A stretch of 64,000 bases of DNA from Jejuia pallidilutea (GTDB taxonomy: Bacteria; Bacteroidota; Bacteroidia; Flavobacteriales; Flavobacteriaceae), in the NCBI RefSeq assembly GCF_002973595.1, contig NZ_PVEO01000004.1, forward strand, positions 186,001 through 250,000, given 5' to 3'. The translations under genes and the position numbers were made by a program. Positions 8,176-38,142 of the stretch are shown piece by piece. Position 1 is the first letter of the stretch. The number at the start of each line of letters is the position of its first letter. The notes beneath the pieces were generated by a model. It was not told the origin of the DNA. It made no database searches and saw only the letters and a list, made by a program, of their open reading frames with translations.

Positions 8176-11100
8176 ATGAAATCTAGAATATACATTACAT
8201 TATCCTACTTTTTGCTTTGTAACCTTTTATGTGCACAGTTTAATAACCTTAAGTTTGAAAATTTAGATACAACTGAGGGATTATCAAGTAGTACTTGTTT
8301 TGAAATTTTTCAAGATAAGGAAGGTTTTCTGTGGTTTGGAACAATTGATGGTCTTAATAAATACAACGGATACGAATTTGAAGTCTTTAGATCGATTTTG
8401 AACGATCCACATTCCATAAGCAATAATAGAATAAATGTAATAGAAGAAGATAACGAAGGCAATTTATGGATAGGAACAAACAACGGACTAAACCTGTATA
8501 ACAAAAGAACTAATAAATTTTTACGTATAGATTTATATAAACAATTATCGCTCTCTAACAGTAATCAAAAAATTATAAACGATCTTTTGTACGATTCCAT
8601 TAGTAACCATCTATGGGTGGCAACAAACAATGGTGTTATAAAAATAGTGTTGCAAGACGATGCCTCTAACTACGAAAATTTTAAGTTTTCTTATTATATA
8701 AATGATGAAAACAACCCTAGCTCTCTAGATAACAATACAGCCAATGTAATTTTACTAGATGAAAACAACAGTATTTGGGTAGGTACCAATGGGGATTATT
8801 TAAACCATTATAATACAGGTAAAGATAATTTTGAGCGTATTTTAATTAATAATAAAAAGCCTTATGAGCTAAACCATATACCTAAAAAGGTTTTTATTGA
8901 TTCTGATGGGGATTTTTGGATAGGTAACGATTTTTCTAATCTCATACTATGGAATAGAGCTAGTAATACCTTTAGGCATGTGTCGATGGTAGAAAATACC
9001 ACCCCAATTTTAGGAATACACCAAGACAAAGGAGGGCTATTTTGGGTATCTACAGATGTTAACGGTATTTATTTGTTTGAAAAGAAATCCCTTAAGGTAA
9101 AACAACATATAGTAAATAACCCCTCAGACCCGTTTTCGCTTCCAAATAACAAACCTTCTAAAGTTTTTGTTGATAGAAAAGGTATTTATTGGATAGGGAG
9201 TTATGATAAAGGTGTAAGTAAATTCGATCCATCAAAAAACCTATTTGGTCATTATTATTACAAACCAGGCGAACCTAATGGTATGAGTGAAAAAACAGTA
9301 CAATCTGTTTTACAAGACTCAAAAGGGAGAATTTGGATAAGTGCTTATAACGGAGGTCTCAATTTATTTCTAGAGAAAAACAACAGTTTTAAGCATTACG
9401 GGAATAATGGAAAAAAAGAGACCTCATTAAGTTCCACAAAAATATTATATACGTTTGAGGGTAGCGATGGCAACATATGGGTGTGTACCTTAGATGGAGG
9501 TCTAAATAAGTTTAACCCAAATAATAAGACTTTTAAGCACTATTTACATAATGCTTCAGACACCTTAAGTATTGCTCAAAACTCCGTTTGGACTGGTGTT
9601 GAGGATTCTAAAAAAAGATTGTGGTTTGGTTTAAGAACGCAAGGTATAAGTTTGTATAACCCAAAAACTCAAAATTTTCATAATTATAAAAATACGTTTT
9701 CAACCAAAAATGGGTTAGTAAGCAATAATATTCTATTCACTTTTATAGATTCTAAAAACCGTTTATTAATAGGAACTTTCTTGGGTTTAAATGTTTTAGA
9801 TCTTAATTCTTTAAATGAGGATGTGCCATTAGAAATTAAATTCACTCATATTAAAGGTAAAGGCATTGAAGAAACAGGGATAAACCATATAACGGAAGAC
9901 CACTTAGGCAATATTTGGTTGGGTGCCGATAGCGGCGTACATAAACTTAATGCGTCTTTAGAGTTGGTAAAATCGTATTCATCTCAAGATGGGCTTCCCA
10001 ATAACTTAGTTGTTGGCATTCAAGAAGATAATAATCATAATTTATGGATAAGTACAAAAGGAGGTATATCTTTATTTAATCCACGAACAAATCAGTTTAA
10101 AAATTTTAACTCCCATGATGGTTTACAAGGGTTGGAGTTTCAAAGTAAATCTATTGAGAAAACTAAAGATGGAAGAATTATTGTTGGTGGAATAAACGGA
10201 TTTAATATTTTTCATCCAGATAATATTAAAGAGAGCGATTCAGTAAACCTTCAACCAAAAATTGTAAACTTTAAGCTAAATAATAAGACCGTTATTTCTG
10301 GTGACTCTATAAATGGTAGGGTTCTTTTAAGAAAACATATATCGCAAACAGATAATTTACAGCTAAACTACGATGAGAATTATATCTCATTTGAATTTCT
10401 TGCCCTTAATTTTGATAATCCAGAGAACGTACAGTATGCATACAGAATGCAGGGTTTAGATGAAGAGTTTATAAATGTTGGCTCCAATAGAACTGTAAAC
10501 CTCTCTAACCTAGAATATGGCGATTATACTTTTGAGGTTAGAGCATCGGTAGATGGAGAGTGGAGTAAAGCATCTGTAGCATCGCTTAACATAGAAATTT
10601 TGCCACCATATTGGAGAACTTGGTGGGCATATTTAATTTACCTGATAATTGGTGCTGCTATTTTTTGGATTATTGTACATTATTATACCCTAAAAGTTCA
10701 AGAAAAGCAACAGCACGAGTTAGACCAAATGAAACTTAAATTCTTTGTAAACGTATCTCATGAATTTAGAACACCATTAACACTAATTTTAAATCCTGTA
10801 GATAAAATACTTTCTAACTTTAATAACGATACAGAAACCATAAAGCAGTCTGCACAATCAATACAGCGAAGTGCCAGAAGGCTATTACATTTGGTTAACC
10901 AATTACTCGATTACAGAAAGATGGATGCAGGCATGGCGCCATTAAGGTTGCAAAAAGGCGATATTGTTAAGTTTAGTAAGGACATTTTTTTGCTGTTTAA
11001 AGACATAGCCTTTAAAAAACAAATTGTTTATAATTTTAATTCTAATGCCGATTCTATTACAGGAAATTTTGATTTTGATAAGGTAGAGAAGATAACTACC

Positions 11101-12348
11101 AATTTAATTTCAAACGCCCTAAAGTTTACAAATAGCGGTGGTGAAATTAGTGTATCTATTAATAAAATAAGAGATGAAAAAAGCACCACTTTAGGGGCCT
11201 TTTTCAAAAAGAAGATATCGGGAGATTATATTGAAATTATTGTGGAAGATACAGGTATAGGTCTTGATAAGGAACAGCAAAACAATATTTTTTCTCGATT
11301 TTATAATGTAAAAAATGATAAATCTGGTACAGGAATAGGCTTAAATTTTACCAAAGCATTGGTAGAGATTCATCAAGGCGATATTTCATTTGAAAGTCAA
11401 CTAAACGTAGGTACTAAATTTATTGTAAAATTACCTATAGATTTAGAATCTAAAACAGAAAAAGCAGCAAATATTAAAGATGAATTTTTAATAAATACAT
11501 TTAATGCTTTAGAATATGATATGCTTACATCTGATGATGAGGTAGTTGCCGCAAATAGCGTTGAAAAAGATACGTCTAAAAAACCCGTTGTACTCATTGT
11601 TGAAGACAATAAAGAGCTAAGAGTTCATTTATCTAACGATTTAAAAGGACATTATCTTGTAAAAGAAGCTGTAAATGGAGAGCAAGGGTTAAAAATGGTA
11701 AAGAAAATTATGCCAGATATAGTTATTAGCGATGTTATGATGCCTAAAATGGACGGTTTTAAAATGTGCGAACTACTTAAAACAGATTTTGATACCTGCC
11801 ATATACCAATTATTCTGTTAACAGCTAAAACATTAGATGAAGATAGGGTGCAAGGATACAATCAAGGGGCAGACGGTTACATATCCAAGCCTTTCGTAAC
11901 AAGTGTATTAAGGGCGAGAATAGATAATTTATTAGAAGCTAAGAGAAGGTTAAGAAAACGTTTTTCTGAAATTGGTGGGGCATTTATATCTCATGAGATT
12001 ACTACCAATAATTTAGATGAAGTCTTTCTAGATAAAGCTACAAAAATTGTAATGGATAATATAACACAAGTAGATTTTAAACAAGAACAGCTTTTAAAGG
12101 AAATGGGTATTGGTCGCTCACAATTTTATAGAAAAATAAATTCCCTAACAGGTAGTAATCCAAGTAATTTTATACGTACTATACGGTTACGTTATGCCTC
12201 AGAGTTATTATTGCAACAGCGTTACTCTATAAAAGAAGTAACCCATATGTCTGGGTTTAATTCTACGGCTTATTTTAGTAAAACCTTTCGAGAGTTATTT
12301 AATGTAACTCCCAGTCAGTTTGTTGAGCAGAACAAAAAAGATAGCTAA
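8176..12348 (+). CDS. hybrid two-component sensor/AraC regulator (HTCS) of the fasciclin-SUS operon
   Basis: A 1390-residue one-protein signalling system. It starts with a signal peptide (residues 1-20). About 14 two-component-propeller repeats (pattern LWIGT, FWFGT, WVGT) extend to residue about 680 and form the periplasmic sensor. A Y_Y_Y domain (about 735-810) and one membrane helix (about 815-838) follow. The cytoplasmic part has a histidine kinase with VSHEFRTP (phospho-acceptor H862) and ATPase boxes (DTGIGL), a receiver domain with D1186 in SDVMMPKMDG and KPF, and a C-terminal AraC helix-turn-helix (about 1290-1385). HTCS proteins sense glycan fragments and activate the adjacent PUL. 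It precedes the fasciclin-SUS operon by 391 bp and is its likely activator. The ligand is unknown. Confidence 0.93.
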   Translation: MKSRIYITLSYFLLCNLLCAQFNNLKFENLDTTEGLSSSTCFEIFQDKEGFLWFGTIDGLNKYNGYEFEVFRSILNDPHSISNNRINVIEEDNEGNLWIGTNNGLNLYNKRTNKFLRIDLYKQLSLSNSNQKIINDLLYDSISNHLWVATNNGVIKIVLQDDASNYENFKFSYYINDENNPSSLDNNTANVILLDENNSIWVGTNGDYLNHYNTGKDNFERILINNKKPYELNHIPKKVFIDSDGDFWIGNDFSNLILWNRASNTFRHVSMVENTTPILGIHQDKGGLFWVSTDVNGIYLFEKKSLKVKQHIVNNPSDPFSLPNNKPSKVFVDRKGIYWIGSYDKGVSKFDPSKNLFGHYYYKPGEPNGMSEKTVQSVLQDSKGRIWISAYNGGLNLFLEKNNSFKHYGNNGKKETSLSSTKILYTFEGSDGNIWVCTLDGGLNKFNPNNKTFKHYLHNASDTLSIAQNSVWTGVEDSKKRLWFGLRTQGISLYNPKTQNFHNYKNTFSTKNGLVSNNILFTFIDSKNRLLIGTFLGLNVLDLNSLNEDVPLEIKFTHIKGKGIEETGINHITEDHLGNIWLGADSGVHKLNASLELVKSYSSQDGLPNNLVVGIQEDNNHNLWISTKGGISLFNPRTNQFKNFNSHDGLQGLEFQSKSIEKTKDGRIIVGGINGFNIFHPDNIKESDSVNLQPKIVNFKLNNKTVISGDSINGRVLLRKHISQTDNLQLNYDENYISFEFLALNFDNPENVQYAYRMQGLDEEFINVGSNRTVNLSNLEYGDYTFEVRASVDGEWSKASVASLNIEILPPYWRTWWAYLIYLIIGAAIFWIIVHYYTLKVQEKQQHELDQMKLKFFVNVSHEFRTPLTLILNPVDKILSNFNNDTETIKQSAQSIQRSARRLLHLVNQLLDYRKMDAGMAPLRLQKGDIVKFSKDIFLLFKDIAFKKQIVYNFNSNADSITGNFDFDKVEKITTNLISNALKFTNSGGEISVSINKIRDEKSTTLGAFFKKKISGDYIEIIVEDTGIGLDKEQQNNIFSRFYNVKNDKSGTGIGLNFTKALVEIHQGDISFESQLNVGTKFIVKLPIDLESKTEKAANIKDEFLINTFNALEYDMLTSDDEVVAANSVEKDTSKKPVVLIVEDNKELRVHLSNDLKGHYLVKEAVNGEQGLKMVKKIMPDIVISDVMMPKMDGFKMCELLKTDFDTCHIPIILLTAKTLDEDRVQGYNQGADGYISKPFVTSVLRARIDNLLEAKRRLRKRFSEIGGAFISHEITTNNLDEVFLDKATKIVMDNITQVDFKQEQLLKEMGIGRSQFYRKINSLTGSNPSNFIRTIRLRYASELLLQQRYSIKEVTHMSGFNSTAYFSKTFRELFNVTPSQFVEQNKKDS

Positions 12349-12739
12349 CATAAACAGTATTTTTATTTTTAATAGTGCGCTACCAACTTTCCTGTAATAA
12401 TGTCTCTCACTTTTAATTAAAAACGCAACTAACCTTTAAAAAATTAAATACTTAGAATATATGAATAAGATATTCTAAAAATAGCATGTTAAATTTTTAT
12501 TTAAAGCTATTTAAAAAGTAAAATATTCAATATTTAACAATCTACAACGATATAGTGTTTTTTTTATGTTAAAAGAACTATAATTTATCTCTAAAGAGCA
12601 ATAATTTATATAGGTAAAACACCTGCTTTCTTAAGTTTGTCTTAAAATATTGTTAATGAAAACCAAAATTTTATGGTTTTTAGAAATTAGTATTATCAAC
12701 CAATTTTTTAACTATAATAATTTAAATTAATAATTAAGT
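12349..12739 (+). promoter_or_regulatory. promoter region of the fasciclin-SUS operon
   Basis: This 391-bp gap has no gene. A TAAGTTTG at 12632-12639 fits the Bacteroidota -7 consensus TAnnTTTG, but no good -33 TTTG is present. A perfect 7-bp inverted repeat AAAACCA/TGGTTTT with an 8-base spacer lies at 12659-12680. On the minus strand TTGGTTGATA (12694-12703) and TTGGTTTT (12659-12666) begin 37 bp apart, a spacing shared with the region at 33996-34041. These are candidate binding sites for the AraC domain of the upstream HTCS. Confidence 0.4.
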
Positions 12740-15055
12740 ATGGCAAAACAATTAAAGCACAAAAAAGTTATAATTATGATGCTCATAATTATGACTGCTT
12801 TTGGATGTAAACCAGATCCACTAGAATATGCGCGTCCAGATAACTTAGTAGGGACAATCTATCCGCAATTAGAGGCATTAGGTACATTTAATTATTATCT
12901 TCAGGCATTGGAGAAAACAGAATACAAGGACCCCTTAACCAAAGGTGGGTCGTGGACTGTATTTGCACCAACCGATGAGGCCTTCGAAAAATTTATGCAA
13001 AAAGAAGGTTATGCAAACCTTGAGGCTATTCCAGCTGAAAGAATCGAAAACATTATTAAATACTCTATAATAATTGATGCTTGGAATACTACCACTCTAA
13101 CATATTATTACAGGGGGTTTTATGAGGGTAATTCATTTAAACGCAGAACTCAATACCAAGACCCTGTAGTTGAAGTTGATGCTTCAGATTATCCTTTCTT
13201 AATGGAAGAACCAGATCCAGGAAAGTACTTAATAGATACAAGTAACGGAAGAATTAAAACAATCAGTTATTTCTTAGATTCTTATTTTGATGTGAAACCC
13301 TCAACGGAAACCTCTGATTATAATTATATGTTCCCAGGTAAACAGCATGAACAGGGTGATATGAAAGTTTTTGAAGCCCATGTAGAACAAACAAATATTA
13401 TTGCTGAAAACGGTATGATATATGCTTTAGACGAAGTAATAGAGCCGAGAAAGAATTTATATCAAAACCTTTCTTCTGAAGAATATGGTGGTAAATACAG
13501 CACTTTTAAAAGGTTGTTAGAGCGTTTTGCTACTATTAATTATGTAGGTGACGAGGAAAATCCTGAGACTGGTGAAATAGAAGAAATACATAGATTAAAT
13601 TTCGCCACTGGAATTACCCAGAATTTGTTGCCATTTAATCCAAACGAAGAAAACTACCCAAGATTATTAAGTAATGTAGATAGAACACTAGCAAATAGTA
13701 CCGGTCTTTTAGTGCCAACAAATGATGCGTTACAAAATTATTTGGATGGAGATAATATTCTAGGTCAGTTTTACGACTCCTACGATGATATGCCTCTAGA
13801 TGTATTAGGTAAGTTCTTAAAACCTTTTTTCTTTGCAAACTTCTGGGATATATGTCCAAGTAACTTTGGTCAGTCTTTTAATGTTGCTTTAAACTTAGTT
13901 GATTATAAAGAAGAAGACGTTGTAGATAAAAAATTCTGCAGTAATGGTTTCTTCGCAGGTATAAATACGGTCTATACTAACGATAGTTTTGCCACCAGTA
14001 TGGGACCTCTTTTATTAGATCCAGATTATACCATTATGCTTAAAGCTGTACAGGAGTTGGGTATAGATAATGCTTTACAAAGCCAAGGTATTGATTTTTC
14101 TGTATTTGGAATAAGAAATGACCAATTTGTTAATATAGCAGATCCTAATAGTGCTTCAAGAAAGATAACAGTAGTTGATTTTGAACCAGACCTATCTATC
14201 ATTTATATGCAAGTTGATGGAGACCCTGTTGAATCGAACAATAGAGTATATCCAGACCCAAATTCTTCAAACCCAAGTTCTTCAGATATTAATTATGTTA
14301 CAACAACACTAAAAGATATTGTTTTAAATCAAATTGTAGAAGAAGCAATAGATTTTAATTCAAACAACTATTACGTTACAAAAAGTGGCGAATACATCTA
14401 TGCTTCTGGCGGTAAAATAGCTGGTGGAGGTGATATACAAAACGGCTCACAGTTAGATATAGTATCTGTTCGAGAAACTGATAATGGTAAATTTTACGAA
14501 ATGAGCGGCGCTATTGAAAGACCATTGCAGTTCACATATTCTGCGTTGGTTGATAATGCCGCATCGTTCTCAATGTTTATTCAGGTTCTTGAAGGTGCAG
14601 AAGCTGTAATACCTATACCTGGTTCTGAAGATAAATTGATAAACCTTTTAAACTTACAAAAATCCTTTACGTTGCTAGCTCCTAATAACGATGCTGTAAC
14701 CCAAGCTATAAGTGATGGTGTTATACCTAGTCCAGACCCAAGTTATCTAGAAGGGCTAGATCCTTTGGAGTTGGCTACAGCTAAGAAAAACCTTTTAGAT
14801 TTTGCTAAGAAGCACTTTATACAACAAGCCATTCCTGCTGACGGAAGATTAACAGGAAGTTTCCCGTCATTATACTTTGATAGAGTGATTGATTTTGTTC
14901 CGGTTTATGATGAGTTTATTGTAGAAAACGATAAAGCAACATCAACTCTAACATTAACAAATACCGTAACAGGCAACGCAATAACTACGAGCGGAATCTC
15001 AAATCTGTTGTCGAAAAAGGTGGTAATACACGAAATAGATAATTATATAAAATAA
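12740..15055 (+). CDS. multi-domain fasciclin (FAS1) lipoprotein
   Basis: A 771-residue surface or periplasmic lipoprotein (lipobox FGC, cysteine near residue 29). Fasciclin signatures recur. The first domain has WTVFAPTDEAF near residue 72 and closes with GMIYALDEVIEP near 226. A second begins near 255 with LLVPTNDAL near 323. A degenerate third is near 434 (LKAVQELGIDNAL). The last begins near 598, with FTLLAPNNDAV near 644 and VVIHEIDNYIK at the C-terminus. FAS1 domains mediate adhesion or ligand binding. It opens a seven-gene operon and lies 29 bp before a SusC gene, so a role in binding substrate for that transporter is likely but unproven. No catalytic motif was recognised. Confidence 0.85.
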   Translation: MAKQLKHKKVIIMMLIIMTAFGCKPDPLEYARPDNLVGTIYPQLEALGTFNYYLQALEKTEYKDPLTKGGSWTVFAPTDEAFEKFMQKEGYANLEAIPAERIENIIKYSIIIDAWNTTTLTYYYRGFYEGNSFKRRTQYQDPVVEVDASDYPFLMEEPDPGKYLIDTSNGRIKTISYFLDSYFDVKPSTETSDYNYMFPGKQHEQGDMKVFEAHVEQTNIIAENGMIYALDEVIEPRKNLYQNLSSEEYGGKYSTFKRLLERFATINYVGDEENPETGEIEEIHRLNFATGITQNLLPFNPNEENYPRLLSNVDRTLANSTGLLVPTNDALQNYLDGDNILGQFYDSYDDMPLDVLGKFLKPFFFANFWDICPSNFGQSFNVALNLVDYKEEDVVDKKFCSNGFFAGINTVYTNDSFATSMGPLLLDPDYTIMLKAVQELGIDNALQSQGIDFSVFGIRNDQFVNIADPNSASRKITVVDFEPDLSIIYMQVDGDPVESNNRVYPDPNSSNPSSSDINYVTTTLKDIVLNQIVEEAIDFNSNNYYVTKSGEYIYASGGKIAGGGDIQNGSQLDIVSVRETDNGKFYEMSGAIERPLQFTYSALVDNAASFSMFIQVLEGAEAVIPIPGSEDKLINLLNLQKSFTLLAPNNDAVTQAISDGVIPSPDPSYLEGLDPLELATAKKNLLDFAKKHFIQQAIPADGRLTGSFPSLYFDRVIDFVPVYDEFIVENDKATSTLTLTNTVTGNAITTSGISNLLSKKVVIHEIDNYIK

Positions 15056-15084
15056 CTAACCAACAAACTAAAAGTTTATAAAAT

Positions 15085-18000
15085 ATGAAGGATAAATATA
15101 GGTCATATTCGTATGTCTTAGTGGTAATATGTATGTTGCTATCAGTATACAGCATGTCTGCACAAGAAAAGGTTATTATATCTGGAACTATCACCTCAGA
15201 GGCAGATGGTTTACCTCTTCCTGGAGCAACTGTTGGTGAAAAAGATAAAGATAATCGAATTATAAATGGTGTAGCCACAGATTTTAACGGCAATTATTCA
15301 ATCGCACTTAAAAATCCGAATAATACCTTAACTTACTCTTACGTTGGTTTTGTTACAAAAGAGATAGTACCTGGTAATAGAACAACAATTGATGTTGTAT
15401 TAAAAGAAGATATTGCCGAATTAGATGTAGTTCTCGTTCGAGGTGTAAAAAAGGTTTTCAATGGAGAACTCGAAGTAACTAAACGAAGAACAGCTACAGC
15501 TATCGAGACCATTTCCACCAAAGAAATCAGTGAAACAGTATCAGCTGGAATTGTAGATCAATTACAAGGACGCTTAAGTGGAGTAGATATCGTTGCTAAT
15601 TCTGGAGAACCCGGTGCAGGTATGTCCATTCGTATTCGTGGTACATCATCGTTAAACGCGTCTGCTGAACCATTAATTGTTATAAATGGGGTGCCTTTTG
15701 AAACAGAAATTGACGAACTTTTCGATTTTGGATCAGCCGATGAGCAACAGTATTCTGCACTAATAGGTGTTTCTCCTGATGATATTGAAGAAATATCAGT
15801 ACTAAAAGATGCAGCAGCAACTGCATTATTTGGCTCCAGAGCAGCAAATGGGGTTCTTTTAATTAAAACCAAACGTGGTACAAGAGGCCCTGCTAGATTT
15901 AGTTATAGCGCTAGAGCCACTGTGGGATGGCAGCCAGAAGGTATACCTATGTTAAACGGAGACCAATATTCCACACTCATAAAAGACGAACTCATAGCGG
16001 TTAATAGCGAGCTTGAGGTGCCGCAGATAGAATTCGACCCTGAGTATGAGTTGTTCAATTTGTATAATAAAAATATTAATTGGATTGACGAAATCACCCA
16101 AACAGGGACAACACAAGAACATTTTCTTGGAGTTTCTGGTGGTGGAGCAAAATCATCATACCGAGTTTCTGCAAGTTATAAAGATCAGTTAGGAACAACA
16201 ATAGGAAGTGCCTTTAAACTATTTACTGCTAGAGCTATATTAGACTATAATATTTCAGATAAAATAAGTATTTCCTCAGAGTTGTCATATAGTCATGGAT
16301 CTCTAGATAGGTCTTATGCTAGAGATGGAAGTTTAGGGCAACAGGCGCTTAGAGCTTTAGCGCTTATTAAAATGCCAAACCAATCTATTTATCAAGTGGA
16401 TGAAAACGGTAATCTAACCGATCAATTCTATACGCCAATTAATGCCTTTCAAGGTAATGGCGTAGAGTATTACAACCCGGTAGCTATGGCGAGGCTTTCT
16501 CGAAATAATACCGAAAATAATAGAATAACTCCAATATTTAGGTTTAACTATAAACCCATTACATCCTTAGAGTTTCGTTCCATTATTTCGTTAGATATTA
16601 ATGTAGACAAAACTTCTAGATTTGTACCAGAGCAAGCTCTAGGAGCAGCTTGGACTAATTCGGCAGCAAATAGATCTACGTTTGGAGATGCAGAGTTCTT
16701 TGTTTTCAGAACAGATAACCGCTTAAATTGGACTCCAGATTTCGGTACAGAAGACCATTCACTTTTAACAAGTTTTGCGCTTCAAACATTTGAAAAAACA
16801 AGTGAAGGTTACACTGCTGTCGCCAGTAATTCTCCTAGTAATTTCATTCAAACTCCAATTGCTAACACGCGTATAGAGGGAAATGGAAACACATTAAACT
16901 CTAGTTTTACACAAAATAGAAATGTAGCGTTTAACTTTACGTTTAATTATCAATATTTAGATCGCTACATACTTAGCGGAGGTGTGCGCTCAGAAGGAAA
17001 TTCTAAATTTGGTAGTAGTTATAGATATGGTACATTTCCAAGTATAGCTGCAAAATGGATTTTGTCTAGTGAACCTTTCATGAAGGATTATGAGTTTATA
17101 GACGAAATTGGTATAAGGGCTAGTTATGGGGTTAATGGTAATGCACCAAATTTTAATTACGGCCAATACAATACTTATAGAACATTTGACTATAATTACC
17201 TAGACGACCGACCTGTAATTCCTGAAAATATGGAACTAACAGATTTAAGATGGGAAACTATCATTCAAAAAAACATAGGTCTTACATATTCATTTTTTGA
17301 TAGAAGAATAAGCGGTGATTTTGAAATTTATCAAAGTGAAAGTAGAGATATTCTAACTAGTAATACTCCAATACCTTCAACATCAGGTTTTTCAAGAGTA
17401 CCATTTCTTAATTTGGGAGATATTAGTAATGAAGGATTTGAATTAAGTGTAAGAACCAAAATCATTCAAAAAGAAAATTTTGGCTTAGATTTTAATTTCA
17501 ACATCGCAAGAAATAGAAACTTAATAAAGCGCATTGCAGAATCGCAAGATGCTGAGGAAGGTAACCCGCTTCAAACAGGTCCAGGTGGCTACTTAAAAAG
17601 AATTCAAGAAGGCAACCCTATTGGCTCGTTTTACGGATACCGTTACAAAGGCGTGTTTAGTACAAGAGATGATTTAATAGCTAGAGATGAAAACGGAGAA
17701 GTGATTGTGGATTTAAACGGAGAGCCTAAAACCACTGTATTTAATAATGGTTACGAATTTAGGCCAGGAGATGCCATGTATGAAGATATTAATAATGATG
17801 GAAATATCAATCGTTTAGACGTAGTATATCTAGGTAATGCAAATCCTTTATTCTTTGGTGGTTTTGGACCAACAATTCGATATAAAAACTTTCAATTAAA
17901 TGCATTTTTTAACTTTCGTTTAAAGCAAAAAATGATAAATATTGCCAGAATGCAAACTGAAAGTATGGATGATTTTGACAACCAAAATACTGCTGTTTTG

Positions 18001-18339: not shown

Positions 18340-18361
18340 ACGATAATAACTTTTTTGTCTT

Positions 18362-19822
18362 ATGAAAAGATATACAATAAAAATATTAATAATGGTTCCA
18401 ATGCTACTAGCTGTATTATCATCTTGTGATGATTATTTACAACTGGAGCCTCAAGATAATTTAATACAACAGGAGTTTTGGCAGAATAAAGAACAGGTTG
18501 CCTCTGCTGTTGCTGGTTGTTACGCTTCCATGAACCAATCTGGTTTTACCGATAGGATTTTAAAGTGGGGAGAACTTAGAGCAGAAATGCTAGTGTCCTT
18601 AAGAGCAGGAGGAAACGAGCAAAATATGATGCGAAATTTTATTATTCCTACTAATGGTTTAGTGAATTGGGCCGATTTTTACGAAACTATAAATTACTGT
18701 AATTTAGTATTAGAATTTGCAGATGCGGCCAAAGAAAAAGATTTATCATTCACAAACCAAGAATTAGCAAACTACAAAGCAGAAGTTTTAACTATACGTG
18801 CACTAGTATATTTTATACTAGTAAAAAATTTCAAAGAAGTACCATTAGTACTAACGGCCACTTCAAACAGTCAAGTAGATTTTTATCCTGCAAAGAGCAC
18901 AGAGGATGAGGTTATTGCACAAATTATCTCAGATTTAAAAATAGCTGTACAAGATTTAAATTTAGGTTATTCGCAATCTGCTGCTTACGATAAAGGTAGA
19001 ATGACCAAAGGCGCTGCATTAGCAATTTTAGCAGATGTTTATTTATGGAACGGGCAATACAACGAATGTATAGTCGCAACCCAAGATATTATCGATTCTG
19101 GCAGATATAGTTTGGTGGAAGGATCAGACTGGTTTAATGAAATATTTTTTGAAGGTAATTCGGTAGAAGGTATTTTCGAACTTCAATTTAGCGATTTAAA
19201 TCGAACATATCAAAGCTCATTTTATGTTGGGAGTCCAATTTATGCACCATTCCCAGAAATTAGGCAAGTTTATGCTGGCTACCCAGACGATGTAAGAACA
19301 AATTTTGCAACTTTTGATCTAGAGCAAAATACCGTATTTAAATTTGCCGGAGTAGACGAAACAGGAGTATACCGCGGACAGCAAGAATTTTTTAATACGT
19401 TTATATTTTATAGATATGCAGAAGTGCTCTTAATGCAAGCCGAGGCATATTTATTATCAACCGAAAACAAAAACTTAGATAGAGCGGCAAATCTTATAGA
19501 AATGGTACACCAACGTTCAACTGGAGCTCCTCTGGAAGTTCCTATTGATGAAGTTTCATTGTTAAATGCTTTACTATTGGAACGACAAAAAGAATTTGCA
19601 TTCGAAGCTAAAAGATGGTACGATTTATTACGTTTTGCCCGCAGGAACAATTTCCAAGACCAATATTTAATAACGGACTTGGCGGATATTAAAAGTAGTG
19701 CAGATGATTACGAATTGATTTTGAGTTTTTACTCAGATAAAGAATCGTATTTTCTGCCTATTTTTCAAAATGAGGTGGATTTAAATCCTAATTTGGAACA
19801 AAACCCCTATTACGAAAACTAA
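18362..19822 (+). CDS. SusD/RagB-family outer-membrane lipoprotein (fasciclin operon, first)
   Basis: A 486-residue surface lipoprotein (lipobox LSSC, cysteine near residue 22, followed by DDYLQLEPQDN). The SusD fold is indicated by TPR-like helices (ALVYFILVKNFKEVPLV near 150) and the C-terminal signature ERQKEFAFEAKRWYDLLRFAR near residue 405. SusD proteins cap SusC and bind the incoming glycan. It is 22 bp after its SusC partner and 12 bp before the next fasciclin gene, so it is clearly part of one operon. Substrate unknown. Confidence 0.93.
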   Translation: MKRYTIKILIMVPMLLAVLSSCDDYLQLEPQDNLIQQEFWQNKEQVASAVAGCYASMNQSGFTDRILKWGELRAEMLVSLRAGGNEQNMMRNFIIPTNGLVNWADFYETINYCNLVLEFADAAKEKDLSFTNQELANYKAEVLTIRALVYFILVKNFKEVPLVLTATSNSQVDFYPAKSTEDEVIAQIISDLKIAVQDLNLGYSQSAAYDKGRMTKGAALAILADVYLWNGQYNECIVATQDIIDSGRYSLVEGSDWFNEIFFEGNSVEGIFELQFSDLNRTYQSSFYVGSPIYAPFPEIRQVYAGYPDDVRTNFATFDLEQNTVFKFAGVDETGVYRGQQEFFNTFIFYRYAEVLLMQAEAYLLSTENKNLDRAANLIEMVHQRSTGAPLEVPIDEVSLLNALLLERQKEFAFEAKRWYDLLRFARRNNFQDQYLITDLADIKSSADDYELILSFYSDKESYFLPIFQNEVDLNPNLEQNPYYEN

Positions 19823-19834
19823 AAAAAATAAATT

Positions 19835-21460
19835 ATGGAAACCAAAAAATTAATGACATGGATTGTAGGTTTATGTGTGTTTATGTTATTCCTAAATGCA
19901 TGTAACGATGATCTCGAAGACACAACGTTCTTTACTACGGACGAGATGACTATTATTGGAACTCTAGAATCAAATCCAGAGAAATTTTCATTATACCTAG
20001 AAATTCTGGAAAAAACAGAGTATTACAACGCTTTAAAAAGTTATGGTAACTATACGTGTTTTGCACCAACCAACGAAGCAATACTTAAATACATACAAGA
20101 AAACTTTAATGCAAACTCTATCGATGAGCTTTCATCTGAACAAGATATTGAGTTTTTAAAGGTTTTGGTAAAGTTCCATACTATGCCATCTGGACGACTT
20201 ACTAGTAGCTTTATTGAAGGAAGACTTCCTGATACTACCTATACAGGAGATTATTTAACAACATCCTTTTTAAGAGGAGGTGGTATTTCTAATGTAGAGA
20301 TAAATAGAGAGGTAGGTTTAGAACAATACGATATTCGCACTAATAATGGAGTTATACATGCTATAAATGGTGTAATGTCGCCATTTGTTGACCCAGTTCC
20401 TGCAGCTATGGAGAAAGCAGGAAAGCACAATATTTTTGTTGAAGCAATGAAACAAACAGGATATTACGAAATTTTTTCAGTCATTTTTGCTGATAATGGT
20501 TCTAAAAATAACTTTACAATATTGGCAGAGTCAGACGAGGTTTATGCTAAAGAAGGTATTAATTCGTTTGAAGATTTAGTTGCAAGAATATCGCCCAGTG
20601 ATTCTGATTTTACAAACCCAGATAACGACTTAAATAGATATGTAGGATATCATGCAACAAAGAACTTTTTGTACACCGCAGATTTTCCAGAAGATGCATT
20701 TATAAACACAGTATTGCCTAGAAATGCCATTAAGTCTTTTAAGACCGATAAGGAATTAAGATTAAATGAAACAGAAACAGGCGTTGATGATACCTGGACA
20801 TCTATAATAACATCTGAAAGTAATTACCCTTCGAAAAATGGTGTTTATCATACCGTTGATAAATTATTCACAATTTTTGTTCCAAAGCCTAAACATATCA
20901 TCTTTGATGTAATTAGCGATCAACCAGAATATCAATCTAGACTAATTCGTTCGCACCAAAAGGTGCCTAGTACGGCATGGGAGTTTATACGCTGGTTCCC
21001 CGAGAAAGACGTTAGATACTTAAGACAAAGTAAAAACTCAAATATCGACCACACAGTGCTGGATATTGCTGGTGTTGCATGGTTTGAATTTGATACCCCA
21101 GTAATTCCAAAGGGAAAGTACGAAATGTTGGTAATGGGTAACGGCGGTAACGGAGCGCGTGCCATCTTTCAAATATACTTTGATGGCGAACCAATTGGTT
21201 CTGTGTATAACATGACCCTTAGAGCAGGTGATATAGGATGGCCAGACGAAACTTTAATGGATTCGAGAGGTTGGAGATTAGGGTATGAAGAATATGTAGA
21301 TAATAAAGGGGTTTCGCAAGCTGAAAAATCAGGTAACAGTAGATTTATTGTATCTAGGGAATTACTAATTCCAGAACAAAAACGACATGTTGTAAGGTTT
21401 GAAACCTTAAAATCTGGAAATAGCCCTATAGATTTTATAGAGTGGATTCCAGTAGACTAA
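19835..21460 (+). CDS. two-FAS1 lipoprotein with C-terminal beta-sandwich-like domain
   Basis: A 541-residue lipoprotein (lipobox LNAC near residue 23). Two fasciclin domains are visible: the first with YTCFAPTNEAIL near residue 72 and ending in GVIHAINGVMSP near 174, the second about 190-350 with NNFTILAESDEVYA and ending in GVYHTVDKLFTIF. The remaining 190 residues (about 352-541) are not fasciclin. They are glycine- and aromatic-rich (KYEMLVMGNGGNGAR, IYFDGEPIG) and end in PIDFIEWIPVD, reminiscent of the last strand of carbohydrate-binding beta-sandwich modules. It may bind a glycan and present it to the SusC/SusD pairs on either side. No enzyme motif was seen. Confidence 0.8.
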   Translation: METKKLMTWIVGLCVFMLFLNACNDDLEDTTFFTTDEMTIIGTLESNPEKFSLYLEILEKTEYYNALKSYGNYTCFAPTNEAILKYIQENFNANSIDELSSEQDIEFLKVLVKFHTMPSGRLTSSFIEGRLPDTTYTGDYLTTSFLRGGGISNVEINREVGLEQYDIRTNNGVIHAINGVMSPFVDPVPAAMEKAGKHNIFVEAMKQTGYYEIFSVIFADNGSKNNFTILAESDEVYAKEGINSFEDLVARISPSDSDFTNPDNDLNRYVGYHATKNFLYTADFPEDAFINTVLPRNAIKSFKTDKELRLNETETGVDDTWTSIITSESNYPSKNGVYHTVDKLFTIFVPKPKHIIFDVISDQPEYQSRLIRSHQKVPSTAWEFIRWFPEKDVRYLRQSKNSNIDHTVLDIAGVAWFEFDTPVIPKGKYEMLVMGNGGNGARAIFQIYFDGEPIGSVYNMTLRAGDIGWPDETLMDSRGWRLGYEEYVDNKGVSQAEKSGNSRFIVSRELLIPEQKRHVVRFETLKSGNSPIDFIEWIPVD

Positions 21461-21488
21461 TTTAAATACTTTAATTAAAGAACTTATA

Positions 21489-23009
21489 ATGAAAAATAGA
21501 AATAATACCATTGTTAACTTTGGCCTTATTATGCTTCTAATTTGCTTGTTTACGGCTATTGGTTGTAAAGACGATGCTTGGGATGACCATTACGAGCAAC
21601 TAGACTCTAGGTTAGAGAATAACATTCTTTCAATCCTTTCAGAGGATTCTAACTATTCAACATTTGTACAATATCTCAATCAAACAGGTTATAATGAAGA
21701 ATTGGCATCTGCCCAAGCATACACAGTTTGGGCGCCTAATAACGCCGCTTTCGAGCAGGTTCCAACTGCGATTCTAAACGATCCAGATTTGCTAAAGCAA
21801 CTCATAGGAAACCATATAAGTTTGTTCTCCTATAATACCGCTCATAATGATGAGGTTTTGGTTAAGATGTTTAATGATAAGTATGTTGAATTTATAAATA
21901 CAAATGGGGATTCTAGTTTTGGAGGTGTTAATTTAGTAGAAAAGGATATTTTAGCTTCTAACGGGGTTCTGCACACTATAAATGAGGTTATTGATGTAAA
22001 TCCTAATATTTGGGGTTACTTAAATGATAATGTTGAAAGATACCCTAAATTAATGGCGTATTTAAGCCAATTTAATGAAACAGCTTTTGATGAGGCAAAT
22101 AGCGTAAAAATAGGTACCAATACCTTAGGACAGCCGGTATACGACTCAATATATACTACTACCAATACGTATTTTAAAACAATTGGCGATTTAAGTTCAG
22201 AAGAAGAACGTTTTTCTTTTATTGGTTTAACTGATGATGCATACGAAAGCATCTTCGATATTTTTGATGATTATTACAATCATCCATTAGTAGATTCTGT
22301 TAAGAATAAAACAGAGAAAACCATTTTTAGAAATTTAAACTTTCCGCAAGTAGACCCAGACAATTTAAACGGTACTACTATTACTTCAACTACAGGTAGC
22401 GAGGTTATGCTGGATCCCAGTTTAATTGTTGAAAATATTGAGTTAAGTAATGGTAATGTGTTTGTAGTAAACGAATTAGACTTTGATCCTAGAGGTGTGA
22501 TTTACAAACCAATTAGGTACGAAATAGAAAATACAGAAAAAAGAACTACAGGCTCTTTAACAGATTTTTCAATACAAAAAAGATATGATATAACGGCCTC
22601 TGAAGAATTTACAAATGAGATTACTTTGTTAGAAAATCCAACACCTGGAGATACTAATAATTTTTTCGAAATAACATTTAGCAATGTACTTGCTGCTAGT
22701 TACAAGTTAAATTTAAAGTTCACTCCAGTAGGAGCCACACAAGACACAAAATTAAAATTTCAGTTCAGTTATATTCGTTCCAATTTTCGTCCTACAATAG
22801 AAGAAATAGGGCCTATAGTAGTTAGTAATTTAGAAGATGGTGTTGTAACAATTGGCGATACTTTCGATTTTTCATTCTATGCTACCGGACAGGAGGACGA
22901 TTACTTCTTTGTGAAACTAAAAGTAATAGTAGATGTAAGTGAACCAGAGCTTTTATTGTACGACCGCCGTTTCGGTATCGATTATGCAGAATTAGTTCCA
23001 ACAGAATAA
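21489..23009 (+). CDS. FAS1 lipoprotein with C-terminal beta-rich domain
   Basis: A 506-residue lipoprotein (lipobox IGC near residue 26). The first fasciclin domain is clear (YTVWAPNNAAFEQVP near residue 78, closing with GVLHTINEVIDV near 160). A second, less conserved domain occupies about 170-335, with FSFIGLTDDAYESI in place of the usual APTNDAF and NVFVVNELDF near its end. The C-terminal 165 residues are beta-rich and finish with GIDYAELVPTE. This parallels the PIDFIEWIPVD ending of the preceding gene, although the two domains otherwise differ. It lies 28 bp after that gene and 37 bp before the second SusC. Likely role: surface glycan or protein binding. Confidence 0.78.
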   Translation: MKNRNNTIVNFGLIMLLICLFTAIGCKDDAWDDHYEQLDSRLENNILSILSEDSNYSTFVQYLNQTGYNEELASAQAYTVWAPNNAAFEQVPTAILNDPDLLKQLIGNHISLFSYNTAHNDEVLVKMFNDKYVEFINTNGDSSFGGVNLVEKDILASNGVLHTINEVIDVNPNIWGYLNDNVERYPKLMAYLSQFNETAFDEANSVKIGTNTLGQPVYDSIYTTTNTYFKTIGDLSSEEERFSFIGLTDDAYESIFDIFDDYYNHPLVDSVKNKTEKTIFRNLNFPQVDPDNLNGTTITSTTGSEVMLDPSLIVENIELSNGNVFVVNELDFDPRGVIYKPIRYEIENTEKRTTGSLTDFSIQKRYDITASEEFTNEITLLENPTPGDTNNFFEITFSNVLAASYKLNLKFTPVGATQDTKLKFQFSYIRSNFRPTIEEIGPIVVSNLEDGVVTIGDTFDFSFYATGQEDDYFFVKLKVIVDVSEPELLLYDRRFGIDYAELVPTE

Positions 23010-23046
23010 TTAATACAACCTAAAACTAAATATCAATTATCTGATC

Positions 23047-26000
23047 ATGATGAAAATAAAAAATACATATTTACTGCTTTTCATTTTATTTTTCGGAATC
23101 ACTTTTGCATTGCGAGGACAGGAAAGTACCAATTTAAGCGTTACAGGAACGGTAATAGATGCCAGGGATAAACAACCTTTAGCTGGAATAAACATTCGTA
23201 TTGGTGCATACGCTTCTGTTACTACAAACAAAGAAGGTAAGTTTACAATAAAGGTTCCCGATCCTAGGGTTACGCTTATTGTGTCTAATCCAGATTACAA
23301 AACAAAAGAAGTAGCGCTTAAAGGAAGAACAGATGTTGAAATTGAGTTGCACAATACAGATTTTAATTCGTATTACGAACAAGACGTTCATATGCTATTA
23401 AATGGTAAATCCAACGCTTCTATTGTTAACGCTATTTCTACAAAAGAAGGTGATATTGCAACACCTAGAGAATCTTTTGCCAATATTATTAATGGAGAAT
23501 TAAGTGGTATGCGCTCCATTATGCGTTCTGGAGTACCAGGAATAGGAGCAAACATGTTTATTAGAGGTTATAATACTATTAACGGAACAACCCAGCCATT
23601 AGTTATTGTTGATGGTATGATGATAGAAACAAACACTTTTGTTAACAACGATTTAATTGGTGGCTACAGCTACGATCCATTATCTGATATTAACCCCAAG
23701 GATATTGCCAATATTACTGTAATAAAGGATGCAGCATCTATTTATGGTTCTAGGGCAGCAAACGGTGTGATACTTATAGAAACAAACAAGGCCGAGGGTG
23801 TAACAACAAAAATTGATTTTTACGTTCAAGGGGGCTTAAATTTTCAGCCCAATAACTTGCCAATGATGAATAGCAAACAGTTTAGATCGTTTTTATCTAA
23901 CCAATTGAACGATTCAGGACTCTATTCAGTAGACGAAATTAGTAGGTTACCATTTTTTAATAACAACCAGGAGTTTGAAGATTACGAAAGGTATCATAAT
24001 GAAACCAATTGGCAGGATGAGGTGTTTAATAACAATTATGTAAACGACTACTATTTAAAAGTAACAGGGGGCGATGAAATTTCTAAATACGGGCTATCTA
24101 TTGGGTATACAACTAATAAAGGTGTTGTTGAGAATTCTAGTTTCGACAGGTTTACCACACGATTTAATGCTGAAACAAGTATTTCAGAAAAATTATTTTT
24201 AAATACAAATTTAAGTGTAAGTTATACTAATAGAGATGTTTTTGATGATGGTTTATTAAGCTCCTCACCAATTTTTTCAGCACTCAACAAATCTCCATTT
24301 TTAGCTCCTTTTGTTCCAAATGCAGATGGAGTAGTAACAGGTGTTTACGAGGATGTAGATAATATTGGTGGTTTTAGTAATCCTGTGGCTATTACAGATA
24401 ATACAATTTTTGCAGCTAAAGATTATAACTTATTTGGTAACTTTAAAATTTCTTATAAGATTTCAGATAAGTTAACATTTAGTACTTTAATAGGTGCCAA
24501 TTATATTAAAAACAGACAGAAAGTATTTTTACCAGATTTAGGTTTATCTACAGAATTTAACGCATTTGGAGACGAACAGGTAAGAACTTCTAAAGTGAGT
24601 GCCGAAAGTTTATTTTCTTTATACAACGATACAAGACTAAATTATGTGTTTAACGTAGACGATATTCACAATTTTTCTTTAAACCTTGGTGTACGTTACA
24701 ATCAAAACAATTACGAAAATTCTTTTTCTACCAGTGGAAATGCTGGAGATGATCAATTCACTAATTTACAAAGTGGAGATCGTTTAACCTTTGTAACATC
24801 TGGTAGCATTGGCAACTGGAACTACGGATCTATTTATGCCAATGCAGATTATTCATTTTTAAATAAGTTTTTTGTAAGCTATAATCTTGCAATAGATGCG
24901 TCTTCACGTTTTGGGGATGATAAATCTGCTGGGTTTTTTCCAGGTATTGGAGCTGCTTGGTTAGTTTCATCTGAAAAATTTATGTCTAATCTTCCTTCCG
25001 TTGATCAATTAAAACTTCGTGTAAGTTATGGATTAACAGGTAACGATGGTGTTGGAAACTACAACGCAGAATCTTATTTTGTCTCAACAAGATTTTTAGA
25101 AGGAACAGGTTTGGTTAACGGTAATATTGCTAATAGTTCTATTAGATGGGAGGAAACTGCCAAAGCAAATTTAGGGTTAGACATAGGTTTATTTAATGAG
25201 CGATTATCGTTGAATTTAGATTACTTTAATAATGTTAGTGAAGGGTTGTTAAACTTAAATGAAACTAGTCCAATTTTTGGAAGTGAAGGCTTTTTAAATA
25301 ACGACGGTAGAATAAAAAATACCGGTTTTGAATTAGGTTTGAATGCTAGAATTTTCAATACAAGTAATTTTAGTTGGGATATAGGCGGTAATATTTCAAC
25401 ATACAAAAATGAGATTCTTTCATTACCCGGAAATCAGCAAATAAACAATATTGAAGGAGTAAATGCTACTATACTAAATCAAGAAGGTAGTCCTCTAGGT
25501 CTATTTTATGGGTATAAAACAGATGGTATTTATAACGATGCTGCTGAAGCTACCTCAGCTGGTTTAAATTGGACAGACCCTCAAGGTTTTCAAAGACCAT
25601 TTGTGGCTGGAGATGTACGATTTGTAAATACAAATGCTTCAGATAATGTAATTAATGAAGATGACAGAGTAGTGATTGGAGATCCCAACCCAGATTTTAC
25701 AGGAATGATTTACAATACATTTACTTATAAAAAACTTAGTTTGTCTGCTGTATTTTCTTTTAGCCAAGGTAACGATGTTTACAATGCTTTAAGATGGCAA
25801 AACGAGTCTATGAGTGGTGTATCAAATCAAAGTTTAGCTACTGTAAATCGTTGGCAAGTAAGTAATCAAAACACTAACATTCCCAGAGCCGTTTATGGAG
25901 ATGCTCCTGGTAATTCTAGATTTTCAGATAGATGGATTGAAGATGGTTCGTTTATACGTCTTAAAACCTTATCATTGTCTTACAGTCCAGAAATTTTCAA

Positions 26001-26163
26001 TGCAACATTTTATGTAACGGCAAATAACATTATAACTTTTACAGACTATTTAGGTTTTGATCCCGAATTTAGTACTTCACAGGTAAGTTATTTGCAGGGT
26101 ATTGATGCTGGTTTTACACCACAATACAGTTCAGTATTAATTGGAGTTAGAGTAGGATTATAA
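23047..26163 (+). CDS. SusC/RagA-family TonB-dependent transporter (fasciclin operon, second)
   Basis: A 1038-residue outer-membrane importer with signal peptide (about 1-24), an N-terminal carboxypeptidase-regulatory-like domain (GTVIDARDKQPLAGINI), a plug (MFIRGYNTING, LVIVDGMMI, VIKDAASIYGSRAANGV) and a barrel. The region that normally reads EVVVVGYG between these domains is instead NSYYEQDVHMLLNGKSN, so a standard TonB box is not recognisable. It is not a near copy of the first SusC in the operon, which suggests two different ligands or two sizes of ligand. Its SusD partner follows after 28 bp. ATG at 23047 is followed at once by another ATG, so the start could shift by one codon. Confidence 0.92.
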   Translation: MMKIKNTYLLLFILFFGITFALRGQESTNLSVTGTVIDARDKQPLAGINIRIGAYASVTTNKEGKFTIKVPDPRVTLIVSNPDYKTKEVALKGRTDVEIELHNTDFNSYYEQDVHMLLNGKSNASIVNAISTKEGDIATPRESFANIINGELSGMRSIMRSGVPGIGANMFIRGYNTINGTTQPLVIVDGMMIETNTFVNNDLIGGYSYDPLSDINPKDIANITVIKDAASIYGSRAANGVILIETNKAEGVTTKIDFYVQGGLNFQPNNLPMMNSKQFRSFLSNQLNDSGLYSVDEISRLPFFNNNQEFEDYERYHNETNWQDEVFNNNYVNDYYLKVTGGDEISKYGLSIGYTTNKGVVENSSFDRFTTRFNAETSISEKLFLNTNLSVSYTNRDVFDDGLLSSSPIFSALNKSPFLAPFVPNADGVVTGVYEDVDNIGGFSNPVAITDNTIFAAKDYNLFGNFKISYKISDKLTFSTLIGANYIKNRQKVFLPDLGLSTEFNAFGDEQVRTSKVSAESLFSLYNDTRLNYVFNVDDIHNFSLNLGVRYNQNNYENSFSTSGNAGDDQFTNLQSGDRLTFVTSGSIGNWNYGSIYANADYSFLNKFFVSYNLAIDASSRFGDDKSAGFFPGIGAAWLVSSEKFMSNLPSVDQLKLRVSYGLTGNDGVGNYNAESYFVSTRFLEGTGLVNGNIANSSIRWEETAKANLGLDIGLFNERLSLNLDYFNNVSEGLLNLNETSPIFGSEGFLNNDGRIKNTGFELGLNARIFNTSNFSWDIGGNISTYKNEILSLPGNQQINNIEGVNATILNQEGSPLGLFYGYKTDGIYNDAAEATSAGLNWTDPQGFQRPFVAGDVRFVNTNASDNVINEDDRVVIGDPNPDFTGMIYNTFTYKKLSLSAVFSFSQGNDVYNALRWQNESMSGVSNQSLATVNRWQVSNQNTNIPRAVYGDAPGNSRFSDRWIEDGSFIRLKTLSLSYSPEIFNATFYVTANNIITFTDYLGFDPEFSTSQVSYLQGIDAGFTPQYSSVLIGVRVGL

Positions 26164-26191
26164 AAAAGTAAAAAAAATAAAAACATATATA

Positions 26192-27808
26192 ATGAAAAGA
26201 TATATAAATATTACGTTACTATTACTCTTTGGTTTGGCGGTGTTTACTTCCTGTGAAAGCTTGTTGGACGTTGATCCAGAAGAAGTTGTACTTTCTGATG
26301 ATTACTTAGGAGATAGCGAATTAGATGCAAGATCAGCTTTATTTGGTGTATTGTCCCAAATGCAAGAGCTAACAGGGCAGTATGTTGTGTTGGGAGAACT
26401 ACGAGCAGATCTAGTTAACGTAAATTCTAGAACAGCAGACGAGTTAAGACAAATAAGTAAGCATGAGGTAGAAGAAGGCAATAGCTATTCAGACCCTACG
26501 GCATTATTTGCCATCATAAACAATTGTAATTTTGCTATTGAAGGTATTGATACTGAGGCTTATGAAAATTTATTGCTAGACGATTATGCATCTATACTTA
26601 GAATTAGAGTTTGGGCACAAATGCAAATTTTAATACACTACGGTAAACTTCCGTACATTACAGAGCCTATAAGAACCAATGACGATTTAGAAAAGAATTA
26701 TCCGTTATTAACCATTAATGAGGCTATTGATCAACTTATATTAGATTTACAACCCATTACAGGTGTAGAAAATGTAACCAAATATGAAAATTCGTTAGGG
26801 TTTAACATATTTAAAATGATTCCTAATCAAGATATTTTACTAGGCGATTTAAATTTATGGAAAGGTAATTATGTAGAGGCAGCTATACACTACAAGCAAT
26901 TTTTAGATGATAATGTTAGTGGAGGTGGAAATTTTTACAACTTAACTAGTCAATATGGGGCTATTACAACGCAATCTGGTGGAAATTATAACGTAAGGAA
27001 CAATTGGGAAAATATTTATCAAGAAAACATTCAGAACAATGTGGTTATTAATTATGTTGCTTTCGATGATCAGTATAGACAACCAAATAGCGCATTTTCT
27101 ATTTTAATGAACGAAATAAAGCCTTCTGCCCTTGCCATTTTAAAATGGGGCGCTCAGTTTAAAGCATTTGAAGGCGAACGATACGAACTAGGCGATAATA
27201 GAGCAGAAGCATCTTACGAAGGCGAAGGAGACTTAGCTATAATTACAAAATACCAATACGAATATTTTGTTTGGAATAGAGTAGTAAAGATTTATTTAAG
27301 ATATGCCGAAGCTATAAATTATGCAGGTTTCCCAGATCAGGCCTTAACTATAGTAAATGGTATTTTTAACAATCCAGGTGTAGAGCCAAAAGATGCGCCG
27401 ATTTTTGATAATGACGAGGGGTATTTAAATTTTGATGTAGACCAATATTTTAACACCAATTCTAGCGACGAGCCCATATCTGGTAATTTAGGTGTTAGAG
27501 GACGCGTTTCTATGGAGCCAGTAACTGTTAATGAAGATTTAACTGAGGCAGAGAAAATAGAAGAAGTAGGTATGCTTATATTAGAAGAAGCGGCTCTAGA
27601 ACTTGCTTTTGAAGGCAACAGATGGGAGGACTTAATGCGTTTTGCGCTTAGAAGTAACGATGCTAGTATTTTGGCAAATGCCGTTGCTGATAAGTTTGAA
27701 ACTTCGGGAGATGATGCAGGAGCTGCAGCTATACAGGCTAAATTAATGAATCCGGAAAATTGGTTTTTACCGTTAACTATTCCAAGTAATTTTTCATCTG
27801 GTAATTAA
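26192..27808 (+). CDS. SusD/RagB-family outer-membrane lipoprotein (fasciclin operon, second)
   Basis: A 538-residue lipoprotein (lipobox FTSC near residue 21, followed by ESLLDVDPEE). SusD-like helices include LRIRVWAQMQILIHYGKLPYI near residue 140, and the C-terminal signature ELAFEGNRWEDLMRFALRS lies near 470. It ends with MNPENWFLPLTIPSN, the typical C-terminal region of SusD proteins. It should cap the SusC encoded just upstream. It is the last gene of the operon and a terminator hairpin follows 93 bp later. Ligand unknown. Confidence 0.92.
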   Translation: MKRYINITLLLLFGLAVFTSCESLLDVDPEEVVLSDDYLGDSELDARSALFGVLSQMQELTGQYVVLGELRADLVNVNSRTADELRQISKHEVEEGNSYSDPTALFAIINNCNFAIEGIDTEAYENLLLDDYASILRIRVWAQMQILIHYGKLPYITEPIRTNDDLEKNYPLLTINEAIDQLILDLQPITGVENVTKYENSLGFNIFKMIPNQDILLGDLNLWKGNYVEAAIHYKQFLDDNVSGGGNFYNLTSQYGAITTQSGGNYNVRNNWENIYQENIQNNVVINYVAFDDQYRQPNSAFSILMNEIKPSALAILKWGAQFKAFEGERYELGDNRAEASYEGEGDLAIITKYQYEYFVWNRVVKIYLRYAEAINYAGFPDQALTIVNGIFNNPGVEPKDAPIFDNDEGYLNFDVDQYFNTNSSDEPISGNLGVRGRVSMEPVTVNEDLTEAEKIEEVGMLILEEAALELAFEGNRWEDLMRFALRSNDASILANAVADKFETSGDDAGAAAIQAKLMNPENWFLPLTIPSNFSSGN

Positions 27809-27900
27809 ACTTATACCTTAGTTTTCTTAACAGAAGTTTAATTTATATTAATAATAAAGAATAAACGTAAAGTAAAAAACACTTTTTCAATTAATACAAA

Positions 27901-38130: not shown

Positions 38131-38142
38131 TTTAATGTTTTT

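Follow-up and report, generated by a model that had tools for sequence, protein, structure and literature searches.

A 64,000-nucleotide stretch of the 4.1 Mb genome of Jejuia pallidilutea (NCBI RefSeq assembly GCF_002973595.1, contig NZ_PVEO01000004.1, positions 186,001 to 250,000; hereafter the window, whose own numbering is used throughout) carries on its forward strand a run of seven genes (12740-27808) that couples two SusC/SusD-type pairs with three lipoproteins bearing fasciclin (FAS1) domains. Specifically, open reading frames and matches to Pfam and NCBIfam families yield the order FASA (12740-15055), SusC1 (15085-18339), SusD1 (18362-19822), FASB (19835-21460), FASC (21489-23009), SusC2 (23047-26163) and SusD2 (26192-27808), which we refer to as the cassette. 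SusC1 and SusC2 are TonB-dependent importers (TIGR04056, 737 and 641 bits, respectively), and SusD1 and SusD2 are SusD-type surface lipoproteins, the former matching PF07980 and PF14322 and the latter only weakly matching PF07980 (39 bits). As judged by eye, FASA, FASB, FASC, SusD1 and SusD2 all have an N-terminal signal peptide that ends at a cysteine of lipobox type.

The gaps between successive genes of the run are 29, 22, 12, 28, 37 and 28 bp, and SusD2 is followed on the same strand by an intrinsic terminator, a hairpin of 13 pairs and a T run (27898-27929) with a folding energy of -13.5 kcal/mol and a z score of -4.95. This hairpin is missed by a GC-based terminator scan and is detected by folding with a z score. 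Upstream lies a gene for a hybrid two-component system (HTCS) regulator (8176-12348, forward strand) with Reg_prop, Y_Y_Y, HisKA, HATPase, response regulator and AraC-type helix-turn-helix domains in Pfam, which is the probable regulator of the cassette. Because 391 bp separate the end of the HTCS gene from the start of FASA, the HTCS gene probably forms its own transcription unit. A preliminary description of the locus had placed the regulator and the seven genes in one operon. Its gene order, single strand, spacing of 12 to 37 bp and terminal terminator are confirmed, whereas the HTCS gene falls outside the tight run.

The only Pfam family recognized in the three fasciclin proteins is PF02469, with scores of 74.9 (FASA), 82.3 (FASB) and 65.9 (FASC) bits against a gathering cut-off of 22. 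In FASA (771 residues), Pfam and alignment place FAS1 domains at both protein ends. Structure models of FASB and FASC each predict two FAS1-type domains followed by a C-terminal beta-sandwich. Fold searches with these two models retrieve the tandem FAS1 proteins TGFBIp and periostin, and also weaker-scoring Protein Data Bank (PDB) matches to the carbohydrate-binding modules (CBMs) CBM6, CBM22 and CBM35 and to a xylan-binding module. No solved structure spanning the full-length FAS proteins was found by PDB profile search.

The preliminary description reported no enzyme motif within the block, and our Pfam and NCBIfam searches agree: no catalytic carbohydrate domain was recognized in the HTCS or the seven cassette proteins, nor any carbohydrate-active enzyme within 8176-27808. 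No catalytic domain was found in FASA, FASB or FASC by Pfam, NCBIfam or PDB profile searches, or by fold searches of the FASB and FASC models. Weak fold matches to members of glycoside hydrolase (GH) families GH115, GH26 and GH29 are short or poorly superposed; they correspond to stretches of multi-domain enzymes and score in the range of isolated CBMs, and we reject a hidden catalytic domain.

The order of the seven genes is kept far beyond close relatives. In searches with profiles built from cassette loci, the exact order was found in the window and in 35 of 36 distinct further loci (37 of 38 compared rows, with L061 and L225 being the same locus and counted once). The loci were picked through strong FASC matches, so that this count comes from a biased sample. 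The recurrence is nevertheless not due to chance, because the order returns in so many distinct loci. These loci belong to other Flavobacteriaceae, to another class-level family, and to Prevotella-type and Bacteroides-type genomes, with protein identity falling to 16-40% across the set; comparison of the window with Bacteroides-type cassettes gives about the same range. The sole exception, in genome G121, has FASB doubled; a tandem FASB duplicate is observed both there and in Mariniflexile fucanivorans (L033 and L051). When adjacency was counted at 59 FASC places, FASB was immediately upstream in 54 and SusC2 downstream in 56. In some assemblies (L057, L058 and L060) a cassette member is missing, doubled or broken.

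Long FASC-like proteins occur in 8 of 299 genomes of the window's family, the window genome included, and the seven other genera of that family that carry the block are either close (three, 55-81% identity) or distant (four, about 25-42%). Among named genomes, the block was found in Mariniflexile fucanivorans, which is the closest match, in two Aestuariibaculum species, in Salegentibacter and Leeuwenhoekiella, and in Prevotella and Bacteroidaceae metagenome assemblies. A phylum-wide sample revealed the cassette in another class-level family, where one genome has two copies. Matches were found in 68 of the 199 genomes in the family to which one Bacteroidaceae assembly belongs, and some of these genomes carry as many as seven FASC copies. 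Shorter FAS1 matches in many phyla were set aside as not being cassette members: they have a single FAS1 domain and other gene contexts.

The seven genes are also inherited together. In a tree of SusC proteins, SusC1 and SusC2 each form one clade with 100/100 support, and the internal groups of the two clades largely match each other. All seven proteins of cassette a in genome G857 are 59-77% alike to those of the cassette in G877 and only 41-59% alike to those of G857's own cassette b, and G786 exhibits the same pattern relative to a Prevotella cassette. Copies within one genome thus diverge together in all seven genes, which species relatedness alone does not explain, and the cassette therefore moves and is duplicated whole.

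Relatives of the cassette commonly adjoin enzymes. Bacteroides-type cassettes have as neighbors a rhamnogalacturonan lyase of polysaccharide lyase (PL) family PL11, as well as PL9, GH28, GH105, GH2, and SASA and GDSL esterases. In a hand-picked set of 70 flanking proteins, which is not a statistical sample, the commonest families are SASA esterase, sulfatase, GH2, PL11, GH43, GH28 and GDSL. Directly 3' of SusD2 in G847 is a gene whose product matches PF16380, 'Rhamnogalacturonan lyase BT_4170-like' (E = 3.6e-94), and genes for a PcRGLX-type protein, a PL11 enzyme and an HTCS lie further downstream. In the window's own subclade, the G002 cassette has sulfatases upstream and, downstream, an alginate-lyase-like CBM6 protein, SASA esterase, GH39, GH3 and HTCS. 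In G173, rhamnosidase-type and acetylesterase genes adjoin the cassette, and in Mariniflexile it is accompanied by GH3 and a rhamnosidase-type enzyme, then by oxidoreductase, 3-keto-hydrolase, SusCD and GH92 genes as in the window. Homologs of the window HTCS immediately precede the cassette in G173 and G121 (68-69% identical) and lie downstream of it in G002 (63% identical).

Two further neighborhoods were observed. In G916 (L265-L267), two cassettes flank one rhamnogalacturonan-type locus (PL9, GH2, PL11, HTCS, GH105 and GH28) in which frameshifts, perhaps due to misassembly, interrupt several genes. In four Bacteroides-type genomes, a 703-residue protein lacking any Pfam match (L212:4505-6616; 95-99% identical) is encoded directly downstream of the cassette, with genes for a DUF4450 protein and GH28 coming next; it is a candidate for a new enzyme family.

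Given these surroundings, the 'enzyme-free' appearance of the window operon is a product of where the operon boundary falls, since close relatives have GH3, GH39, esterase or lyase-like genes adjoining. The preliminary proposal that FAS1 proteins replace enzymes in a separate, enzyme-free system is therefore not supported: relatives of the cassette adjoin lyases, hydrolases, esterases and sulfatases, and the layout has a counterpart in a known locus of Bacteroides thetaiotaomicron, discussed below. From the mixed surroundings we conclude that the cassette is modular, mostly standing beside enzymes and at times alone.

In the window itself, the nearest carbohydrate enzyme on the same strand is a GH88-family unsaturated uronyl hydrolase (34198-35433; PF07470), whose membership in the cassette system is uncertain. 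From this gene onward, GH88, GH92 and GH29 genes lie downstream of the cassette, several of the GH29 products being fucosidases. No PL9 or PL11 lyase or GH28 was found among the window genes scanned. PL11 is absent from the window genome by genome search, PL9 was not searched genome-wide, and a single GH28 lies about 40 kb beyond the window. The genome yields about 50 sulfatase matches, several of them on this contig a short way outside the window. Because PL11 is absent and sulfatases are so numerous, the ligand is probably a sulfated algal glycan rather than pectin. A polysaccharide of this kind that contains uronic acid together with fucose or rhamnose is our best guess, although we put this specific assignment at slightly below an even chance.

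Several other genes in the window deserve mention. A 3-keto glycoside cleavage route in the locus is suggested by 35541-39519, which encodes a pair of MocA-type oxidoreductases together with a 3-keto-disaccharide hydrolase; in Mariniflexile, and in part in G173, these genes are conserved beside the cassette. A 554-residue protein with no Pfam family above cut-off, encoded at 47287-48951 with GH92 on one side and three GH29 fucosidase genes on the other, could be an unrecognized enzyme or binding protein; a weak match to a clostridial enterotoxin family, below cut-off, was taken as chance. A single run at 58262-63330 includes GH29, a weakly GH43-like gene, a sugar transporter and an esterase, and the same four genes (75-93% identical) adjoin the G121 cassette (L281). 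At the other end of the window, 5250-7490 encodes a fusion-like protein with multiheme cytochrome motifs and HEAT and TPR repeats, next to tRNA-Leu(GAG) (7568-7653).

We consider it very probable that the cassette is the conserved capture-and-import part of polysaccharide-use systems in Bacteroidota. The most likely role of the three FAS1 lipoproteins, by analogy and from structure models, is that of surface glycan-binding partners of both importers. FASB and FASC would probably hold the chain through their CBM-like C-terminal beta-sandwiches, with the FAS1 domains serving as spacer or docking modules. Enzymes encoded adjacent to the cassette or elsewhere would cut the chain, and the two SusC/SusD pairs may divide the labor, each taking up different fragments of a single complex polysaccharide rich in uronic acid. 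The HTCS would sense a degradation product and switch the cassette on. This scheme, in which FAS1 proteins capture the glycan at the surface and deliver it to two importers under HTCS control, is proposed because of the models and fold matches together with the B. thetaiotaomicron data; direct contact between FAS1 proteins and SusC/SusD is something we infer. The FAS1 proteins would stand in for the usual SusE/F-type surface binding proteins, and not for enzymes, and of the ideas in the preliminary description, a binding-and-import machine fits best.

Certain observations weigh against this interpretation. The C-terminal domain models are of moderate confidence (predicted local distance difference test values mostly 57-87 within the block and below 50 in linkers), and their superposition is partly poor. 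Pairwise protein distances correlate at 0.93-0.97 across loci, which is in part an effect of species divergence. Complete cassettes in G127, G490 and G628 have no carbohydrate hydrolase or lyase among the neighbors scanned. The binding of rhamnogalacturonan I (RG-I) by BT4167, the protein most relevant to FASC, is known to us from a review of the original work (PMC8002723), and the match to BT4163-BT4169 is based on gene order and neighbors in relatives, because B. thetaiotaomicron was not found among the genomes searched. Finally, the roles favored for this organism derive from sequence and analogy.

Other readings of the same cassette must be weighed. It could be a stand-alone scavenger that imports oligosaccharides freed by other organisms without dedicated enzymes, as would suit an operon that encodes none and the G490, G628 and G127 cassettes (L161, L163 and L041), which are observed beside leuA/leuB-type, transposase, aminotransferase or LacI/ROK genes and are possibly stand-alone importers. 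However, in close relatives the GH3, GH39, SASA esterase and alginate-lyase-like CBM6 genes stand directly beside the cassette, and the window's downstream enzyme neighborhood is common to G173 and Mariniflexile, such that we judge scavenging to be unlikely in the window. Somewhat less likely still is that the cassette serves as an ordinary importer of RG-I, a pectic rhamnogalacturonan, as in Bacteroides. The occurrence of the same cassette in loci with PL9, PL11, GH28 and GH105, the GH88-family gene at 34198 and the rhamnosidase-type and acetylesterase genes by the G173 cassette all favor this possibility, but the enzyme content described above (no PL11 and just one GH28 in the genome, about 50 sulfatase matches and several downstream fucosidases) is at odds with it.

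A role in adhesion or peptide uptake, in which FAS1 domains hold cells to surfaces or matrix while SusC/SusD handle a FAS1-bound ligand, is highly improbable. FAS1 domains are known for adhesion in both animals and plants (PMC6032426), and the SusC1 sequence matches the RagA importer besides 8aa4, its top PDB hit. Against such a role, glycan-enzyme neighbors recur in relatives, the HTCS regulator is typical of glycan loci, and a glycan-binding function is reported for the corresponding slot in B. thetaiotaomicron (BT4167). Glycan capture and import remains the interpretation we prefer. A stronger version of it, rather doubtful at present, would join all seven proteins in a single obligate surface machine. 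Its FAS1 proteins, as glycan-binding subunits of a new class, would form a physical bridge between two SusCD importers of different size or charge preference, with reuse across Bacteroidota for several uronic-acid-rich polysaccharides.

The cassette is a real and ancient unit, since many Bacteroidota, from seaweed bacteria to gut Bacteroides, share it as the part of their polysaccharide-use loci that serves surface capture and import, and for the same reason it is a version of the known Sus-like kind rather than a new enzyme-free machine. Its architecture as a general unit nevertheless appears to be undescribed in the literature searched, and nothing linking fasciclin to surface glycan binding or SusCD cassettes was found in open-access publications. 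A puzzling local operon thereby becomes a testable general unit, whose order is kept even where identity among its fasciclin proteins is down to about 20%, and which is duplicated as a block up to several times per genome. If FAS1 proteins are glycan-binding subunits, many proteins annotated as fasciclin, DUF5108 or hypothetical would gain a likely role, and in gut, rumen and sea alike the cassette would mark loci that deal with glycans resembling rhamnogalacturonan or rich in uronic acid. Why should two different importers and three fixed partners serve one ligand class?

Among the closest known systems is the RG-I locus of B. thetaiotaomicron (BT4145-BT4183), in which, according to a review of gut polysaccharide utilization loci, BT4167 binds RG-I at the surface, BT4170 cuts it, and the products are imported by two SusC/SusD complexes, BT4164/65 and BT4168/69 (PMC8002723). 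In a published transcriptome table (PMC10434189), BT4164-69 appear together, annotated as SusC, a DUF5108 protein, hypothetical proteins and a TonB receptor. Like the cassette, this locus has two SusC/SusD pairs with two genes between them, one encoding the RG-I binder; relatives hold FASB and FASC in these slots, with FASA preceding, and a BT_4170-like PL9 lyase follows in G847. By this analogy, the BT4164-BT4169 layout corresponds to SusC1, SusD1, FASB, FASC, SusC2 and SusD2, then a PL9 lyase, and BT4163, BT4166 and BT4167 would be the counterparts of FASA, FASB and FASC. By synteny, FASC thus occupies the slot of BT4167. A segment of the 8aa4 SusC protein, which comes from B. thetaiotaomicron, was matched at best at 95% identity in the genomes searched.

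The FASB slot of Bacteroides-type cassettes holds a FAS1-DUF5108 protein (PF02469 plus PF17133), as in G877; the window FASB occupies the same slot without reaching PF17133 at 1e-3 in Pfam. Although the window cassette shares its FAS1-SusC-SusD-FAS1-FAS1-SusC-SusD order with Bacteroides-type rhamnogalacturonan loci, it has no adjoining rhamnogalacturonan lyase; fucosidase genes surround it, and the genome is rich in sulfatases. Because no PL9 or PL11 lyase was found among the window genes scanned, the cassette is not classed as an RG-I locus.

RagAB of Porphyromonas gingivalis is a SusC/SusD-type peptide importer that likewise lacks enzymes in its operon, but it is a single pair with a peptide ligand and no FAS1 proteins. 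The SusCD 'utilisomes' for levan and dextran in B. thetaiotaomicron are surface import complexes that combine SusC/SusD pairs with accessory surface lipoproteins. In the cassette, known here from its genes, the accessory lipoproteins are instead FAS1 proteins, two different SusC/SusD pairs share one operon, and that operon encodes no enzyme. The window locus shares with Sus-like polysaccharide utilization loci its two SusC/SusD pairs and a linked HTCS sensor of the Reg_prop/Y_Y_Y type, which accompanies the cassette in three near relatives as well. Its three lipoproteins beyond SusD, which bear FAS1 domains and, in the FASB and FASC models, CBM-like folds, are candidates for the surface glycan-binding proteins of such loci.

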